This document shows positions 52,963 to 62,453 of a stretch of DNA of 64,000 nucleotides, one piece after another. The notes beneath the pieces were generated by a model, which saw only the letters and a list, made by a program, of their open reading frames with translations, searched no databases and was not told where the DNA came from. Source of the stretch: Crossiella sp. CA-258035 (GTDB lineage: Bacteria; Actinomycetota; Actinomycetes; Mycobacteriales; Pseudonocardiaceae). Position numbers and translations under genes: made by a program. The DNA lies in assembly GCF_030064675.1 (NCBI RefSeq), contig NZ_CP116413.1, positions 8,709,501 to 8,773,500 on the forward strand, read 5' to 3'. How positions within the stretch are numbered: the stretch's first letter is position 1; each line of letters opens with the position of its first letter.

Positions 52963-53310
52963 ATGCCGGAACCAGTCCTCGCCACCATCGCCGCCGCACT
53001 GGCCAGTAGCCGCCACACCGGCCTGTACGAGCTGGTCCAAGCCCGGTTCACCGACGACCGGACGGCGACCAAGGCGCTGGTCGCGGCCGAGGGCGAGGCG
53101 GCGGACTCGCGGCAGGTGCGCAAGCTGACCGCGGCGCTGGCACAGGCCGAGGCGGCCGACCCGGAGTTCGGCGAACGGCTGCGCGCGGAGTGGGCGAAGG
53201 CCTCCCAGCACGCCGAGACCGAGGGCGTGACCAACCACATCTCCGGCACCGTGACCGGCAACGTGGTGCAGGCCAGGGACATCCACGGCGGAGTGCGGTT
53301 CACCTCGTAA
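52963..53310 (+). CDS. Small protein with a C-terminal GxVxGNVVQA-IHGG motif
   Basis: This 115-aa protein is mostly helical (residues 1-85, rich in Ala, Glu and Arg) and ends in NHISGTVTGNVVQARDIHGG followed by VRF. Residues 91-113 form a short beta or loop element. A similar DLVQVGVVHGGVHLHH element is at residues 18-33 of the NB-ARC protein encoded at 54948-57047, so the two may interact or share a domain. It lies just upstream of the phase-variable transferase gene (11-bp gap). No known function. Confidence 0.7.
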   Translation: MPEPVLATIAAALASSRHTGLYELVQARFTDDRTATKALVAAEGEAADSRQVRKLTAALAQAEAADPEFGERLRAEWAKASQHAETEGVTNHISGTVTGNVVQARDIHGGVRFTS

Positions 53311-53321
53311 GATCACCGCTC

Positions 53322-54966
53322 GTGCCTGGACAGCGGTGGGTGAAGGTGCCGATCGGGCCGCACAGTCCACAGTGGACGACGGTGCGGACCGAGCGCACGG
53401 TGCTCGCGGTGGTGCACAACCTGACCGCGGCCACCCGCCTGCTGGACCTGCTGCCGCTGCTCGCCGACGACCCCAGGGTGCAGGTGGTGTTCACCTGTCC
53501 CGGTTCCTCGCCGTTCTCCGGGCGGACCGAGGAATGGCTGCACGAACGCGAGATGGCGGTCATTCCGTGGAGCCAGGCGATCCAGGTGGAGTTCGACCTG
53601 GCGATCTCCGCCAGCTACGGCGGTGACCTGCGGGATCTGCAAGCCCCCCTGGCCGTGGTGCCGCACGGAATGGGCTACAATAAATACTCGCCCGGAAATC
53701 GGAAATCGGAAATCGGAAATCGGAAATCGGAAATCGGTTTTCGGTCTTTCGTCCCGCTGGCTGCTCTCCGATGGTGAACTCATCCCGTCGCTGATCGTGC
53801 TCTCGCACGAGGAACAGCTGACCCGCCTGGCCGCCGCCGTGCCGGAGGCCGCCGAACGCGCCCTGGTCGCCGGTGACCCCTGTTTCGACCGCCTGCTCGC
53901 CGGGCTGCCGCTGCGCCCCAGCTACCGCGCCACCCTGGGCTCCACGGACACCCAGCGGATCGTCCTGGTCTGTTCCACCTGGGGCCAGGACTCCTTGTAC
54001 GGCAACGATCCGCAGCTCATCCGCCGTCTGCTGGAAGCCCTCCCGCTGGACGAGTACCGGATCGTGGTCGCCCTGCACCCCGCGGTCTGGGACGCGCATT
54101 CCCGCTGGCAGCTGCACCGGTGGCTGGCCGAGTGCACCCGCGCGGGCGCGGTCGTGCTGCCGCCGGAGGAGGGCTGGCGCGCCGCCACCATCGCCGCCGA
54201 CCTGGTCATCGGCGACCACTCCAGCCTCAGCTTCTACGCCGCCGCCCTGGGCCGCCCGGTGCTGCTGGCCACCGCACCGGCACACGCGGTCGATCCCGGT
54301 TCCGCCGTCGGCCGGTTCCTGGCCACCGCACCACGACTGGCCGCCGACCTCCGCACCGCCGTCGACCAGGCCATCGCCACCCACGACCCGGCCGCCGCGG
54401 CCGAGGTCACCAGCCTCGCCACCTCGGTGCCCGGCGAGTCAGCCCCGTTGCTGCGCAAGGCTTTCTACGAGTTGCTCGGTCTGCCCGAACCCGGCACCCC
54501 GTCCCGCCTGGCCGCCCCGCCACTGCCCCCGGCCGCCCCGGAACCCGTTGCCGCCCAACTGGTCCAGGTGCAGCTCGACCTGCCCAAGGCCACCGTCACC
54601 CGGCACCCGGCCGAGCTGCTGCGCCAGCAGACCGCCATGCCGCCCGGCGCGCACCTGGCCGCGGACACCACCGAGCCCTACCGCGCCTGGCTGGACCTGG
54701 CCGAGGTGGTGCTGCACACGCACACCCCGATCACCGCGGACTGGGTGGCCGCGACCCTGGCCGCGTTGCCGTCCTGCCAGGTCGCGGCGGGTCCGCTGGA
54801 TGCGAGCAGCTGGCTCGCGGGCACCAGGGACGGCCGCTTGTTCCGGTACCTGGCCGACGGGCTGACCGGCAGGCTGGCCGCCTCGGTGCTGCGGGTGGCC
54901 GGTGACCTGCCGCCGGAGCTGACCATCGAGGTCGGCGGGCGGACCGTTCAGGCCACCCGGAAGTAG
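53322..54966 (+). CDS. Phase-variable GT-B-like transferase, copy 1 (out of frame here)
   Basis: The N-terminal frame begins at a GTG (53322), codes for RTVLAVVHNLTAATRLLDLL and VVPHGMGYNKYSPG, and meets a six-unit GGAAATC repeat. In the present sequence it stops at 53777 after 151 aa. The matching C-terminal part is in the +1 frame and codes for VFGLSSRWLLSDGELIPSLI, VAGDPCFDRL, IVLVCSTWGQDSLYG, HPAVWD and DHSSLSFYAAALGRPVLL to 54966. These fit a GT-B fold, like CDP-glycerol glycerophosphotransferases. Five or eight repeat units would join the frames into about 545 aa. The last 19 bp overlap the NB-ARC gene. Confidence 0.75.
53694..53735 (+). repeat. Heptanucleotide tandem repeat, GGAAATC x 6, in transferase copy 1
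   Basis: Six exact copies of GGAAATC occupy 42 bp, preceded by CCC and followed by GGTTTTC. Read in any frame it gives a GNRKSEI heptapeptide repeat without stops. Because each unit is 7 bp, gain or loss of one unit shifts the frame of the gene. The arrangement is identical to that in the second copy at 59284-59325. Confidence 0.98.
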
Positions 54967-57047
54967 GCCACCGCCCGTTGCACCTGCCGCACCAGGCCCA
55001 GCTCGGCGTAGATGTCGGCGGCGGCCCGGTAGTGCCGCTGGGCCGAGTCGTGCTCGCCCCGCGCGGTGGCCAGCTCGGCCAGCGCCTCGTGCACCTCGCC
55101 GCGGTCGAAGTCCCGGCCCAGCCTGGTCATGGTGTCCAGCGCCGCGGTCAGCGGAGTGCCCGCGTCACCGAGCTGCCGCGCCTCGATGAGCTTCTTTCCC
55201 TGCCACAGCTGGACTTTCGCCGCGTTGTCCTCCTCGCCCAGCTCGCGGAACGTCGCTTCAGCGGCCGTGAGCAGCACCTGCGCGACACCCGGCTGTTCCG
55301 CCTTGGCGGCGTGCAACTCGGCCAGCGCGATCCGGCGCGAGTCGTCGATCAACCGTGCGCCGGCCAGGTTCTCCCGCAACAACTCCAGTGCTTCCGGGAC
55401 CCTGCCCTGGTCCAGCAGCATCAGGCCAAGGCCCTCGCTCGCGCTCAGCCTCGCCTCCAGGTCCCCGGCCGTCCTGGCCAGCGCGATCGCGTCGTCGAAA
55501 GCCCGCTGGCCGTCGTCGAACTCCTCGCAGTGCCGGTGCACGAACCCGATCTGCGTCCGCAGCACGCTCTCCACCAGCGGCGACCGCAGCGCCTGCGCGG
55601 ACCGGGCGGCCGCCTGGAACACCGCCAGCGCCTCCGGATGCCGCTTCAGCGCCAGGAACAGCGACCACAGCAGGACGCCGAACCGGACCACCTGCTCGTG
55701 CTCACCGGCCGCCTCGGCCAGCTCCACCACCGCCCGCAGGTTCTCCACCTCGACCAGCAGCCACTTCTCCGCGTTCTCCCGGCCAACACTGTCCACTGTG
55801 GACAGTTCCGGGAACATCCGCGCGCGCCACGGGCGGTTGGGGCACAGCGCCTGGTCAACGGACGCGGCGACGGTCAGGTAGCTGTGCACCGTCCTGGTCA
55901 GGACCTGGTCATCGTCTTCGGCCGGGAACCGCCGGACCAGCCCGGCGGCGTGCGACCTGATCCACGGGTGCATCGCGTACCGGTCCGCCGTCGGCGGCTC
56001 CACCAGGCGCAGCCCCAGGAGCTCACGCATCCCCTTGCGCACCTGAGTCTCGGTCAACCCAGTGGCCGCGGCCAGCACACCGGCGGACAGCGCGGCGAAC
56101 CCGGGGTGCAGACCGTAAACCCGGTGGCAGGCCGCGGCTTCCGGGCCGAGCTTGCCGGCCACCACGTCGAAGATCAGGTCCACCGGTTCGCCGCCGGAGG
56201 TGCGCATCGAGGTCACGCCGTGCCCGGCCGCGTCCAGCTCGGCGAGCAGTTCCCGGAAGTCCAGGCCGGGCGTCACCAGCAGCATCGCGCGCACCGCGTC
56301 CAGCAGCACCGGCACCCCGTGGCAGCGGTCGAGCACGGCCCGCACCGCCTCGGCCTGCTCCGCCATCAGCGGCACCAGCGGTTCGGCGAGGGAGAGGAAC
56401 AGCTCGGCCATGTCGTCTTCCAGCGGCGCCAGCTCGATCGAGTGCGCGCCCTGCGCGGCCAGTGCGCGGAGGTTGTCCGAGCCGGTGGCCAGCACCACCG
56501 ACCGGCCGCGGCTGGGCAGCAGCGCGGTGACCTGGCCGGGCGCCACCACGTCGTCGAGCACCAGCAGGAACGCCTTGCCCCTGGTCAGCTCGCGGAACAG
56601 GCTGGACAGCGCGCCCAGCTCGGTCGGCTGACCGGCCCTGGCGCAGCCCAGCTGCTCCAGCACCTCGGCCAGCACCTCCGCGGTGCCGCGCGGGCGGTCG
56701 GTCCAGGCGCCGAAGCCGACGTGGATCCGGCCGTCCGGGAACTCCTTCTCGTGCTGGTTCCCCCAGTGCAGGCACAGCGCGGTCTTGCCGAAGCCCCGGC
56801 CAGCCGAGATGGTGGCCACGACCGGCTCGTGCTCCTCGGGCCGGTCCAGCAGCAGCCGGTCCAGCGCGGCCAGCGGGCCGACCTGGTTGACGAAGGCGCG
56901 CGGCCCGCTCGGCAGGCTGGGCCGCCGCGCCGGGGACACCGCCCCGCTGTGGTGCAGGTGCACCCCGCCGTGCACCACCCCGACCTGGACCAGGTCCCCC
57001 ATCACCCGGTCGACCTGGTTGTGGTTGTCCGCCTGCTCGTCCCGCAT
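54948..57047 (-). CDS. NB-ARC/STAND NTPase with TPR-like C-terminus, copy 1
   Basis: This 699-aa protein starts with the shared motif DLVQVGVVHGGVHLHH (residues 18-33). A nucleotide-binding domain has Walker A AGRGFGKTA (residues 82-90, Lys 88) and Walker B LLVLDDV (161-167), with downstream LHPWIRSHAA-type winged-helix features (MHPWIRSHAAGLVR). The C-terminal half (about 400-690) has TPR-like helices (RTQIGFVHRHCEEFDDGQRA, then ALARTAGDLEARLSASEGLG). STAND NTPases act as signalling or death-effector switches. It is convergent with the phase-variable transferase gene and overlaps it by 19 bp. Confidence 0.88.
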   Translation of the reverse strand: MRDEQADNHNQVDRVMGDLVQVGVVHGGVHLHHSGAVSPARRPSLPSGPRAFVNQVGPLAALDRLLLDRPEEHEPVVATISAGRGFGKTALCLHWGNQHEKEFPDGRIHVGFGAWTDRPRGTAEVLAEVLEQLGCARAGQPTELGALSSLFRELTRGKAFLLVLDDVVAPGQVTALLPSRGRSVVLATGSDNLRALAAQGAHSIELAPLEDDMAELFLSLAEPLVPLMAEQAEAVRAVLDRCHGVPVLLDAVRAMLLVTPGLDFRELLAELDAAGHGVTSMRTSGGEPVDLIFDVVAGKLGPEAAACHRVYGLHPGFAALSAGVLAAATGLTETQVRKGMRELLGLRLVEPPTADRYAMHPWIRSHAAGLVRRFPAEDDDQVLTRTVHSYLTVAASVDQALCPNRPWRARMFPELSTVDSVGRENAEKWLLVEVENLRAVVELAEAAGEHEQVVRFGVLLWSLFLALKRHPEALAVFQAAARSAQALRSPLVESVLRTQIGFVHRHCEEFDDGQRAFDDAIALARTAGDLEARLSASEGLGLMLLDQGRVPEALELLRENLAGARLIDDSRRIALAELHAAKAEQPGVAQVLLTAAEATFRELGEEDNAAKVQLWQGKKLIEARQLGDAGTPLTAALDTMTRLGRDFDRGEVHEALAELATARGEHDSAQRHYRAAADIYAELGLVRQVQRAVAYFRVA

Positions 57048-58962: not shown

Positions 58963-60562
58963 ATGTCGACGCGCCAGGACAGCCGCAGCGTGCTGTTCGT
59001 CGTGCACACAGTGGCCTCAGCCAACCGGCTGCTCGACCTGGTGCCGTTGTTCGACGCCGATCTGCGGGTAGCGCTGCACTTCACCTGCCCCGAGGACTCC
59101 ACCGCGCCGGAGGGGGTGGCGGAGTGCTTTGCCGCGCTGGGCATCCAGCCGCTGTCCTGGCAGGCGGCGCTGGCCGCCAAGTTCGACCTGGCGATCACCG
59201 CGAACCACCGGGGTGACCTGCACGAGCTCAGCGCGCCGGTGATGATCGTTTCGCATGGCGTCGGATATACTAAGAATTCGCCCGGAAATCGGAAATCGGA
59301 AATCGGAAATCGGAAATCGGAAATCGGCCTACGGCCTTTCGCCGGAGTACGTGCTGCGCGACGGCGAGGTCATCGCCAGTTCGCTGGTCCTCTCCCATTC
59401 CGAACAGCTCGACCGCCTGGCCAGGGACGTGCCGCAGGCCCTCGACGTGGCCACCGTCGCCGGTGACCCCAGCCTGGACCGCCTGCGCGCCAGCACCCTG
59501 CTCCGCCGGCGCTACCGCGACCAGCTCGGCCTCCTGCCCGGCCAGCGCCTGATCGTCATCTCCTCCACCTGGAACCGGGGCTCGGTCTTCGGCGCCTGGC
59601 CGCAGCTCTACGGCCAGCTGATGGCGGAGCTGCCGGTGGACGAGTACCGGGTGGCCGGGATCGTGCATCCCCATGTGTGGCACGGTTCCGGCCCGTTCGA
59701 GCTGCGCCGCTGGCTGGCCGACTGCGTGCGCGCGGGACTGCTGCTGATCCCGCCGCTGGAGGGCTGGGGCGCGGCGCTGATCGCGGCGGACGCGGTGGTC
59801 GGTGACCACGGCGCGGTCACCGCCTACGGCGCGGCCCTGGACCGCCCGGTGCTGCTGGCCGCCTTCCCGGAACCGGAGGTGGTGCCCGGCACCTGCGTGG
59901 ACCTGTTGGGCCGCACCGCACCCCGGCTCGATCCCACCCGCCCGCTGCGCCCGCAGCTGGACCGGGTGCTCGAGGAGTTCCGCCCCGGGCAGCACCGCGC
60001 GGTCGCCGACCTGGTGTCCAGCCATCCCGACCAGGCCGCCGCCCGCCACCGCGCCCTGGCCTACCACCTGCTCGGCCTGCCCGAACCCGCCACGCCGCCC
60101 CTGGTCCCGCTGCTCGCCCCGGACCGCCTGCCGCTGCTCACGCGCGCCGCCGCCCTGCGGGTCACCGGCCACCTCGACGGCGACGCGGTGCACCTGACCC
60201 GGCACGCCGCCGACGTCCTGCGCGGCCGCCCGCTGAACGCCCCCGAACTCGCCGACCCACACCTGGTCGCGCACCTGCACCACCCGGACCGCAGCCTGCG
60301 GCAGACCGCGGAAGTCCTGCTCTGCCAACGGAACGAGCTGTCCTTCGCGGCCCTGCCCAGCTGCCGGATCTTCCTGCTCGGCGACGAGCTGCGCCTGCGC
60401 GACGGCCGCCGCTACCGCGTTGAGTCCACAATGGACAGTGATCCGGCGCTGGCCGCCTCGGCCGTTCTGCTGCTGCCCGACCCGCCCCGCGAGCTGCGCG
60501 TGGTCACCGGCGCGATCGAGCACCGGTTCCGGCTCACCCCGCTGGCCGCAGCCCCAGGCTGA
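58963..60562 (+). CDS. Phase-variable GT-B-like transferase, copy 2 (out of frame here)
   Basis: A paralogue of the copy at 53322-54966. The N-terminal frame (ATG 58963) codes for SVLFVVHTVASANRLLDLVP, ITANHRGDL and IVSHGVGYTKNSPG, meets six GGAAATC units and, in the present sequence, stops at 59466 after 167 aa. The matching C-terminal part is in the +1 frame (YGLSPEYVLRDGEVIASSLV, VAGDPSLDRLRAS, VISSTWNRGSVFG, VAGIVHPHVWHGSG, VVGDHGAVTAYGAALDRPVL) to 60562. Five or eight units give about 530 aa. Its end overlaps the second NB-ARC-like gene by 29 bp. Confidence 0.75.
59284..59325 (+). repeat. Heptanucleotide tandem repeat, GGAAATC x 6, in transferase copy 2
   Basis: Six exact copies of GGAAATC (42 bp), preceded by TCGCCC as in copy 1. 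The copy number and frame are the same as in copy 1, so the OFF phase is the same. The paralogous gene is otherwise diverged, so the repeat has been kept or recreated while the rest changed. Confidence 0.98.
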
Positions 60563-62453
60563 TCTCCAGCTGGACGATCTCCTGGCTGTCCGGTTCCAGC
60601 TCGCGCAGCACGGCGAGCAGGCTGCGCAGCGAACCGTCCGCCCGGAACAGCTCCGTCGCCCGCCGCAGCTCCGCCGTGGCCGGTTCGCCAAGCGCTCGCC
60701 GGGCCAGCCCCAGCTCCATGGCCACCTTGGCCTGGTTGTCGGTCTCCGCCGTCCCCGCGAAGTGCGCCGCCGCCGCCAGCAGCAGCTCCACCGCCTCCGC
60801 CGGCCGTCCGGTCGAACGCAGCAACCTAGCCCGCTGCAACCTCAGGATGGCGTAGGTGCGCGGCCGGGCCGGTTCCGGCACCAGGGTTTCCGTTGCCCGC
60901 CAAGACTTCTCGAACCACGCGGCTGCTTCCTCGGCGTCCCCGCGCTTCGCGGCGATCTTGCCCCGCCACTCCAGCGCGCTCTGCTGCCCCGACCCGTCCC
61001 CGTAGCGCGCCGCGGCCTCGTGCTGCTCGGCGAAGCACTCGTCCGCCGCCGCGAGCTCACCCACCGCGAAGTGCGCCGACCCGAGCTGCCCGGCCATCCG
61101 CATGATCGCCGCGTCCACGCCCAGCCGCCGGGCCGCGGCCAGCCCGAGCTGGTGCGTCTCGATCCAGTCGTCGTAGTGCCCGTGCAGGTGGTAGAGGCCC
61201 CACAGGGCTTCGCACAGCTGCCAGGCCGCCGCGTCGAACCCGTGCTGCTCGGCCAGTCGCACCGTGCCGCGCAACGCGTCCCGATGCCCGGACAGCCAGG
61301 CCAGCGCCTCGGCCCTGCTGACCCGCGCGGGAGCCAGCTCGGTGAACAGCGGTCCGGACCTCGGCCGGTCGGACAGCACCTTGTCCCTGGTCACCGCGCC
61401 GTGCAGGTAGTGCTCGATGATCCACCCGAGCACCTGCCCCAGCTCGCGGAAGCCCTCCTCGGCCAGCGCGCGGGCGGCCGCGTCCCGCCAGACCAGCTCG
61501 TCCAGCCGGTACCGCCCGTCCTGCTCGGTCAGCAGCGCCAGGTCGACCAGCTCGGCCAGCAGCTCCTCGGCGTCTTCGCCGAGCAGCGCGGTGGCCGCCG
61601 CGAGATCCAGCTCAAGGCCAGGGTGCAGACCGAGTCGCCGGTAGGCCACCTGGAGCTCGCCCAAGCCCGAATACGTGAGGTCGAAGGAGGCTTGCACCTC
61701 ATCCCGGCCCTCAGCGGCGACCGCGGCGAGCCCTTGTTCCTCGATCCGCGCCAGCACCTTCGCCACCCGGCGAGATGCGGCCAGCTGGGCACCCACCACC
61801 CGCAGTGGCAAGGGCAGCCCGCCGACCGAGCGCGCCACCGTGGCCAGCTGCTCAGGGGCGAGCGCGGCCGCCTTCGGGCCGAGGAGCTGCCGGAACAGGT
61901 CCAGCCGGTGCGGCATCGCCAGCCCGTCGATCTCGACCGGCCGGTAGCCGCGGCCGATGAGTCCCGGCGCGAGCAGCCGGGTGGTGGTCACCGCGACCGT
62001 CGCGCCCGGTGTGGCCAGCGGGAACCAGTCGACCTGCCCGGTCGAGGTGACGTTCTCCAGCACCAGCAGCAACCTCTTGCCCGCGGACAGGTTCAGCAGC
62101 GCCTTGCGCCGCTCCTCCGCGGTGGCCGGCTGGTCTTTGCTGGGCAGTCCGAGCGCGGACAGCACTTCACCCAGTTTCGCACCGACCGCCGCGATCTCGT
62201 CCCGCTGCGGCCCACCCAGCCGCACGTGGATCTGCCCGTCCGGGAACCGGCCAGGGGTGTCCCGGAACCACTTCACGATCGCGCTGAACCGGCCGGCGCC
62301 ATCCGGTCCGCACACCGCGAGGAAGGTCGGCCGCCCGGCCGCCAGCTCCTGTTCGTACAGCGTGCTCATGGTCTGCCGATGGCGCTCCCGGTTGACGAAC
62401 CAGGCCGCGTTCGCCGGCAGTTCGCTCGGTGGATCCCCCTGCTGTTCCGCCAC
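60534..62453 (-). CDS. NB-ARC-like STAND protein with degenerate P-loop, copy 2
   Basis: This 639-aa protein is a distant paralogue of the NTPase at 54948-57047: WFVNRERHRQTMS, PDGQIHVRLG, LGLPSKD, and a C-terminal TPR-like half (RAAFAVGELAAADECF-type segments; LEWRGKIAAKRGDAEEAAAW). Walker A reads GPDGAGRFS, so the usual Lys is Arg 55, and Walker B reads LLLVLEN (128-134), in which the Asp pair is replaced by Glu-Asn. It may bind but not hydrolyse nucleotide. It is convergent with the second phase-variable transferase, overlapping it by 29 bp. Confidence 0.85.
   Translation of the reverse strand: MAEQQGDPPSELPANAAWFVNRERHRQTMSTLYEQELAAGRPTFLAVCGPDGAGRFSAIVKWFRDTPGRFPDGQIHVRLGGPQRDEIAAVGAKLGEVLSALGLPSKDQPATAEERRKALLNLSAGKRLLLVLENVTSTGQVDWFPLATPGATVAVTTTRLLAPGLIGRGYRPVEIDGLAMPHRLDLFRQLLGPKAAALAPEQLATVARSVGGLPLPLRVVGAQLAASRRVAKVLARIEEQGLAAVAAEGRDEVQASFDLTYSGLGELQVAYRRLGLHPGLELDLAAATALLGEDAEELLAELVDLALLTEQDGRYRLDELVWRDAAARALAEEGFRELGQVLGWIIEHYLHGAVTRDKVLSDRPRSGPLFTELAPARVSRAEALAWLSGHRDALRGTVRLAEQHGFDAAAWQLCEALWGLYHLHGHYDDWIETHQLGLAAARRLGVDAAIMRMAGQLGSAHFAVGELAAADECFAEQHEAAARYGDGSGQQSALEWRGKIAAKRGDAEEAAAWFEKSWRATETLVPEPARPRTYAILRLQRARLLRSTGRPAEAVELLLAAAAHFAGTAETDNQAKVAMELGLARRALGEPATAELRRATELFRADGSLRSLLAVLRELEPDSQEIVQLEISLGLRPAG

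Follow-up and report, generated by a model that had tools for sequence, protein, structure and literature searches.

The DNA under study, a stretch of 64,000 nucleotides from Crossiella sp. CA-258035 (the window), contains two paralogous genes for TagF-like GT-B proteins, both of which are split between two reading frames at an array of six GGAAATC units. Each gene faces a convergent gene encoding an NB-ARC/TPR protein of the NLR type. The features are listed with their positions in the window and strand, where n is the number of repeat units.

52963–53310, + strand: small protein of 115 residues, with the C-terminal motif GNVVQARDIHGGVRF of the same RHIM-like kind as that of the first NLR protein
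53322–54966, + strand: full extent of the first TagF-like GT-B gene, split between two frames at n = 6
53322–53777, + strand: N-terminal part of the first GT-B gene, equal to the n = 6 (OFF) product of 151 residues, start codon GTG
53676–53681, + strand: TACAAT at the Tyr-Asn codons of HGMGYNK, a −10-like hexamer separated by 11 nucleotides from the perfect tract that follows
53694–53735, + strand: array of six GGAAATC units (perfect tract 53693–53737)
53737–54966, + strand: C-terminal part of the first GT-B gene, 409 residues, out of frame with the N-terminal part at n = 6
54948–57047, − strand: NB-ARC/TPR (NLR) gene convergent with the first GT-B gene; its product carries the RHIM-like motif GDLVQVGVVHGGVHLH at the N-terminus
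58963–60562, + strand: paralogous GT-B gene, also split
58963–59466, + strand: OFF product of the paralogue, 167 residues
59266–59271, + strand: TATACT hexamer of the paralogue
59284–59325, + strand: array of six GGAAATC units of the paralogue
from 59327, + strand: C-terminal part of the paralogue
60534–62453, − strand: second convergent NB-ARC/TPR gene

Two GT-B genes split by heptanucleotide arrays

The preliminary description had reported six perfect GGAAATC units that divide the first gene between two frames, and a product of 151 residues at n = 6. Both statements are borne out, by the array at 53694–53735 and by the frame that starts with GTG at 53322, crosses the array, and reaches a stop at 53777. 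The C-terminal frame, which differs from the N-terminal one, is open for 409 residues from 53737. The 7-nucleotide unit lies inside coding sequence and is not a multiple of three. A perfect array of six units is beyond chance, with none expected from 100 dinucleotide-preserving shuffles.

The array of the paralogue matches that of the first gene in position and frame break. An exact search for three GGAAATC units detected no third array in the 9.17 Mb genome, and a protein search identified one more, more distant GT-B homologue there. A dispersed or mobile repeat was considered and rejected: four GGAAATC units occur in just two of 298 genomes of the order, and the three arrays behind these matches, two from the window and one from locus L133, all lie within GT-B genes.

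Unit number within one species and in other close pairs

Crossiella sp. SN42 (G004) belongs to the same species and has n = 5 at both loci, with both GT-B genes whole. Its first gene (L014) encodes 545 residues in one frame and is a natural example of the continuous protein of about that length that had been predicted for n = 5. The first and second genes of the two strains are 96.4% and 96.8% identical, and each alignment contains a single gap of seven nucleotides, located within the array, and no other indel. The preliminary description had named a fixed unit number and a lack of relatives with an intact frame as evidence against phase variation. Instead, n = 5 and n = 6 occur in one species at two loci, and relatives with intact frames exist. 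These observations support the reading of the GT-B gene as a phase-variable contingency gene.

The GT-B gene is very probably a contingency gene that varies by slipped-strand changes in unit number and forms part of an NLR cassette. Slipped-strand mispairing would add or remove units of the non-triplet array, which sits in a loop just after the conserved HGxGYNK motif of the TagF-like enzyme, and every one-unit step shifts the frame. Five or eight units provide a whole enzyme of the 545-residue class (ON), and six units an N-domain fragment of 151 residues (OFF). The change would be reversible in culture.

An assembly or sequencing error in the array is an extremely improbable source of the difference. 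Arrays can be miscounted, and N runs are present inside those of L052 and L135; however, the window arrays are just 42 nucleotides long, and the difference from SN42 is exactly one unit per locus, with no other gap in the two genes. The alternative that the gene is a decaying pseudogene, with expansion of the array as one disabling mutation, draws on the fact that both window copies are out of frame. By contrast, the same species has whole copies, the one-unit gap is the sole indel, and the ratio dN/dS between the window and SN42 is below 0.5. Calculated from few changes, it is 0.17 (N-terminal part) and 0.29 (C-terminal part) in the first gene, and the corresponding values in the second gene are 0.06 and 0.47.

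Comparison of the same gene in other close relatives, which had been proposed as a check, also revealed differences in unit number and frame. The arrays of the second gene of L031/L042 and those of L093/L094 differ by 7 nucleotides with a change between ON and OFF, whereas those of L022/L116 differ by 21 nucleotides and the frame is kept, each difference being a whole number of units; the alignments of all three pairs have one or two small gaps outside the array as well. Several comparisons count against the contingency-gene explanation. Loci L017, L019, and L020 have three-unit differences and are all in one OFF frame. Unit number is identical within the close pairs L012/L090 and L133/L145. 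The arrays of L053/L057 differ by 32 nucleotides, which is not a whole number of 7-nucleotide units, because the L053 array is interrupted by a broken unit. The agreement between the two loci, n = 6 and 6 in the window and n = 5 and 5 in SN42, is not predicted by independent switching. This agreement, noted for the two window arrays and for entries L089 and L095, may reflect chance or coupling.

Structure and relatives of the GT-B protein

The natural 545-residue SN42 form was modelled by AlphaFold together with 53 further rows, with a pLDDT of 92.9 and a pTM of 0.92. The sole stretch with a pLDDT below 50 comprises residues 127–131, within the repeat loop. The top PDB match of the model identified by Foldseek is TagF (3l7j, E 8e-10), with a TM score of 0.45 by query length and 0.57 by target length. 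UDP-GlcNAc 2-epimerases follow closely, other GT-B proteins score nearly as well, and the TM score by query length is below 0.5 for all among the best 50 matches listed. The model shows a GT-B fold like that of TagF.

Sequence profiles place the family near the margin of PF04464: 8 of 54 members match at E ≤ 0.01, and the window protein reaches 19.2 and 18.6 bits, below the Pfam gathering cut-off of 22.1. The C-terminal part of the paralogue (P0003) had no match to PF04464, a sequence-profile search of the PDB returned 0 matches, and an NCBIfam search provided nothing useful. The HG, HP, and D-H-G/S-S motifs are conserved in the family. Of 43 rows, 42 have residue H115, and H250 and D296 are invariant in all 54; we take these three to be the TagF catalytic positions. 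The family resembles the wall teichoic acid polymerases TagF/TarL (CDP-glycerol glycerophosphotransferases, PF04464) in the top Foldseek match and in these motifs; however, it remains below the PF04464 cut-off, with a TM score of just 0.45 by query. Our guess is that the GT-B protein is a transferase whose acceptor bears a phosphate or is of another kind.

Arrays across the gene family

The first scan used one genome per species and provided 77 loci. Searches of the genus and family added further loci, and removal of 13 duplicates with at least 99% C-domain identity reduced 169 genes to 156 distinct ones. A homologue at E ≤ 1e-30 was present in 54 of the 100 genomes sampled from the family; 40 of the further matches, not all of them, were fetched by hand. 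An array was defined among the 156 genes as a perfect run of at least 2.6 copies and at least 18 nucleotides. An earlier loop table, the source of the range of loop lengths given below, included L015 and L027, which are cut by contig ends and are outside the 156; the 156-gene set includes L064, L067, L068, L069, L071, L072, L074, L077, L078, L080, L082, L083, and L088, which are not in that table.

Many relatives carry arrays in the loop, delimited by HGxGYNK and FGLS, with units different from that of the window. Arrays in the loop or at the 5′ end are present in 85 of the 156 distinct homologues, with units of 5, 7, 8, or 10 nucleotides. The loop arrays (65 genes) have periods of 7 (54 genes), 8 (6), 10 (3), and 5 (2), and the 5′-end arrays (18 genes) have periods of 7 (10), 8 (7), and 5 (1); the arrays of L082 (period 8) and L159 (period 7) are positioned slightly inside the N domain. 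No gene among the 156 combines a loop array with a 5′ array. The 56 genes of L108–L174, which were fetched after the hypothesis had been formulated, contributed 14 loop arrays, 10 5′ arrays, and that of L159, all of them non-triplet.

A scan with strict limits (at least 3.5 copies and 24 nucleotides) of 750 kb, comprising the 77 loci and the window, identified 50 arrays. Forty-seven belong to GT-B genes, either within them or at their 5′ ends, and all of these are non-triplet; the three elsewhere have units of 6, 12, and 6 nucleotides. The location of an array in an NLR gene was also considered and rejected, as these genes contained none within the 750 kb.

If the array tuned the length of a peptide loop near the active site, the frame would be incidental. 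The loop of in-frame genes ranges from 15 to 186 nucleotides and is modelled with low confidence, which suits such a role. However, triplet units should then be tolerated, yet no period among the 85 arrays of the loop or 5′ end is a multiple of three, and units of such length do occur in the few arrays elsewhere and in the short C-domain arrays of the GT-B genes L047 and L140 (12 and 6 nucleotides). We therefore regard loop tuning as extremely unlikely.

L026 (1355–9253) contains a tandem pair of GT-B genes, one with an 8-nucleotide loop array and the next with a 7-nucleotide 5′ array. The array of L049 (3825–4000) mixes two 5-nucleotide units of the GCCGA and CCAAA types, and is possibly a stage of unit turnover. 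The N runs of L052 (3613–3637), and those of L135, are assembly gaps at the repeat.

Frame and turnover

Genes with loop arrays are in frame in 34 of 65 cases and out of frame in 31, and genes without a loop array are in frame in 90 of 91, L083 being the lone exception. The breaks of the OFF genes go both ways, into frame 1 in 16 and frame 2 in 15. The ON share of 34/65 is greater than the one third expected from random frames, which counts against the contingency-gene explanation, as does L083. A FastTree tree of the 156 genes implies at least 35 changes of the loop unit, at least 7 of the period, and at least 21 between the ON and OFF states. This turnover, together with the non-triplet periods, indicates that units are replaced by others that still break the frame.

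The repeated state changes on the tree argue further against gene decay, as does the fact that both halves are open in all 31 OFF genes, and a pseudogene appears highly unlikely. It is even less probable that ribosomes make the full protein at every unit number, by a programmed frameshift or by slippage during translation of the array. Such a mechanism could accommodate nearly half of the loop-array genes being out of frame. Nevertheless, the family contains 28 different loop units (of 5, 7, 8, and 10 nucleotides) and breaks in both directions, which leave no common slippery site, and 90 of the 91 genes that lack a loop array are in frame.

A −10-like hexamer next to the array

The Tyr-Asn/Thr/Ser codons of the motif before the loop read TAnnnT in 61 of the 65 loop-array genes. 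By comparison, TAnnnT is found in 3 of the 57 assessed genes without an array and in none of the 18 with a 5′ array (Fisher p 8e-31, not corrected for kinship). Sixteen of the 73 array-less genes were left outside the count because the N-domain match ends before the motif. Many array-less and 5′-array genes do not have the Tyr; therefore, the comparison within Tyr-Asn genes is fairer. There, AAT is the Asn codon in 38 of the 39 loop-array genes and in 3 of the 24 array-less ones (p 1.5e-12, not corrected for kinship); one of these three, L022, has a close relative that carries an array. Thr is encoded by ACT in 21 of 22 loop-array cases, and therefore T itself is favoured and not A+T alone.

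In 60 of 65 loop genes, the last TAnnnT within 32 nucleotides upstream of the array precedes it by 3–13 nucleotides. In 13 of 18 5′-array genes, the distance is 4–13 nucleotides, and the hexamer is mostly TAAGAT. The corresponding share among 4149 random windows from the same loci is 2.0%, a control that is lenient for the 5′ sites because random windows are mostly coding. A −35 box at the standard spacing upstream of TAnnnT was not visible by eye. At the 5′ sites, the hexamer may simply belong to a leaderless promoter of the ordinary kind. Within the loop, where it is inside coding sequence, it could be an internal promoter or reflect an effect of transcription on repeat stability. We also considered that the conserved T serves an out-of-frame stop, with TAA formed from the hexamer and the Lys codon; this suits the loop sites better and the 5′ sites less well. 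It is conceivable, although rather unlikely, that TAnnnT and the non-triplet array a few nucleotides downstream form a composite module that occupies two alternative places in one gene family. Transcription initiation at the hexamer would open the DNA beside the array and drive unit changes, so that expression would set how often an NLR-linked immune component is switched.

The NLR-type partner gene

The two window NLR proteins match PF00931 with 26.3 and 27.6 bits (cut-off 23.5). For TPR_12 (cut-off 30.1), the first scores 40.3 bits, above the cut-off, and the second 24.8, below it; PADLOC reported a weak TPR match for the second only. Single-linkage BLAST clustering of neighbouring genes identified one constant partner cluster, present at 72 of 77 loci, in which the Pfam scan covers the two window members, the other members are grouped by BLAST, and some loci hold longer members too. 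At 65 of 77 loci, including 36 of the 37 with a loop array, a gene of this cluster lies within 1.5 kb of the GT-B gene and is convergent with it. The two genes overlap at 38 of the 65 convergent loci, and the median distance corresponds to an overlap of 9 nucleotides. At locus 1, the 3′ end of the NLR gene (54948–57047) overlaps the 3′ end of the first GT-B gene, and the gene for the small protein ends 11 nucleotides before the GT-B start.

Home-made patterns and profiles place an RHIM-like motif at the N-terminus of the first NLR protein and at the C-terminus of the small protein; the same pattern and profile did not find the N-terminal motif in the second NLR (60534–62453). A motif like VVQAGxIHGDVHFH is present at the N-terminus of 28 of 90 NLR-cluster proteins according to a loose home-made pattern, and of 7 of 90 according to the strict first pattern. 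In sequence, it resembles the RHIM/BASS amyloid signalling motifs. The small motif protein is encoded at about 10 of the 77 loci as well as in the window, counting six matches at E < 1e-3 and four weaker ones accepted by eye. A weak match at L016 was judged spurious.

Bacterial NLR/BASS gene pairs are described in the accessible text of PMC7889193 and PMC8086366. Locus 1 resembles BASS signalosomes with Bell-domain partners in that its NB-ARC/TPR protein has a candidate RHIM-like motif at the N-terminus and a small neighbour bears a candidate motif of the same kind at the C-terminus. By contrast, the constant partner here is the GT-B enzyme, the small protein has the limited distribution given above, and a repeat switch is absent from the accounts in the accessible text of the two papers. 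The GT-B gene and the convergent NLR-type gene would constitute one cassette, to which locus 1 would add a small protein with the amyloid-like motif of the NLR. The array would then switch one part of an NLR-based system for defence or cell death on or off in a fraction of cells. According to the accessible text of PMC7889193, the outcome of NLR/BASS signalling in bacteria remains to be explored; therefore, we infer the defence or cell-death role from gene linkage.

Relation to known phase-variable systems

In SSR contingency loci of the Haemophilus, Neisseria, and Campylobacter type, enzymes of surface polymers are typical targets. The GT-B genes share with them a non-triplet tandem array in coding sequence, in which whole-unit changes move the frame. 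They differ in belonging to soil actinomycetes and in having units of 5–10 nucleotides that turn over between species. Furthermore, a single gene family is affected, with two alternative array positions, a link to NLR-type proteins, and a −10-like hexamer.

The preliminary description knew of no comparable example in an actinomycete, which holds in part. Phase variation as such is known from the Pgl phage-defence system of Streptomyces coelicolor, where it occurs via a G tract in pglX, according to the accessible text of PMC4365076. Pgl therefore shares with the GT-B genes a phase-variable gene of an actinomycete, whereas its tract is a homopolymer and its genes are others (methyltransferase, kinase, and ATPase; PMC4365076, accessible text). 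The heptanucleotide type was not found reported: the literature searched, in which subscription papers are thinly represented and which included the accessible text of PMC3711429, contained no report of the GT-B family, of heptanucleotide switching in actinomycetes, or of NLR-linked repeat switching. The kind of switch is known, and its setting and breadth appear to be new, namely the distribution, the NLR link, and the TAnnnT hexamer that accompanies the loop array.

The arrays look like a widespread genetic on/off switch. Switching of the reading frame by tandem repeats, familiar from host-adapted pathogens, would thereby also occur in a gene family of many actinomycete genera and be linked with proteins of the NLR type. 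Should the cassette be a defence system, immunity would vary among the cells of a single culture, and such differences would explain the upkeep of a costly or self-damaging NLR system. With its many natural in-frame and out-of-frame alleles and its two array positions, the family allows direct tests of the selection that favours non-triplet units and of the part played by the hexamer. Seven plasmid records, six from Streptomyces and one from Embleya, also contain distant homologues.
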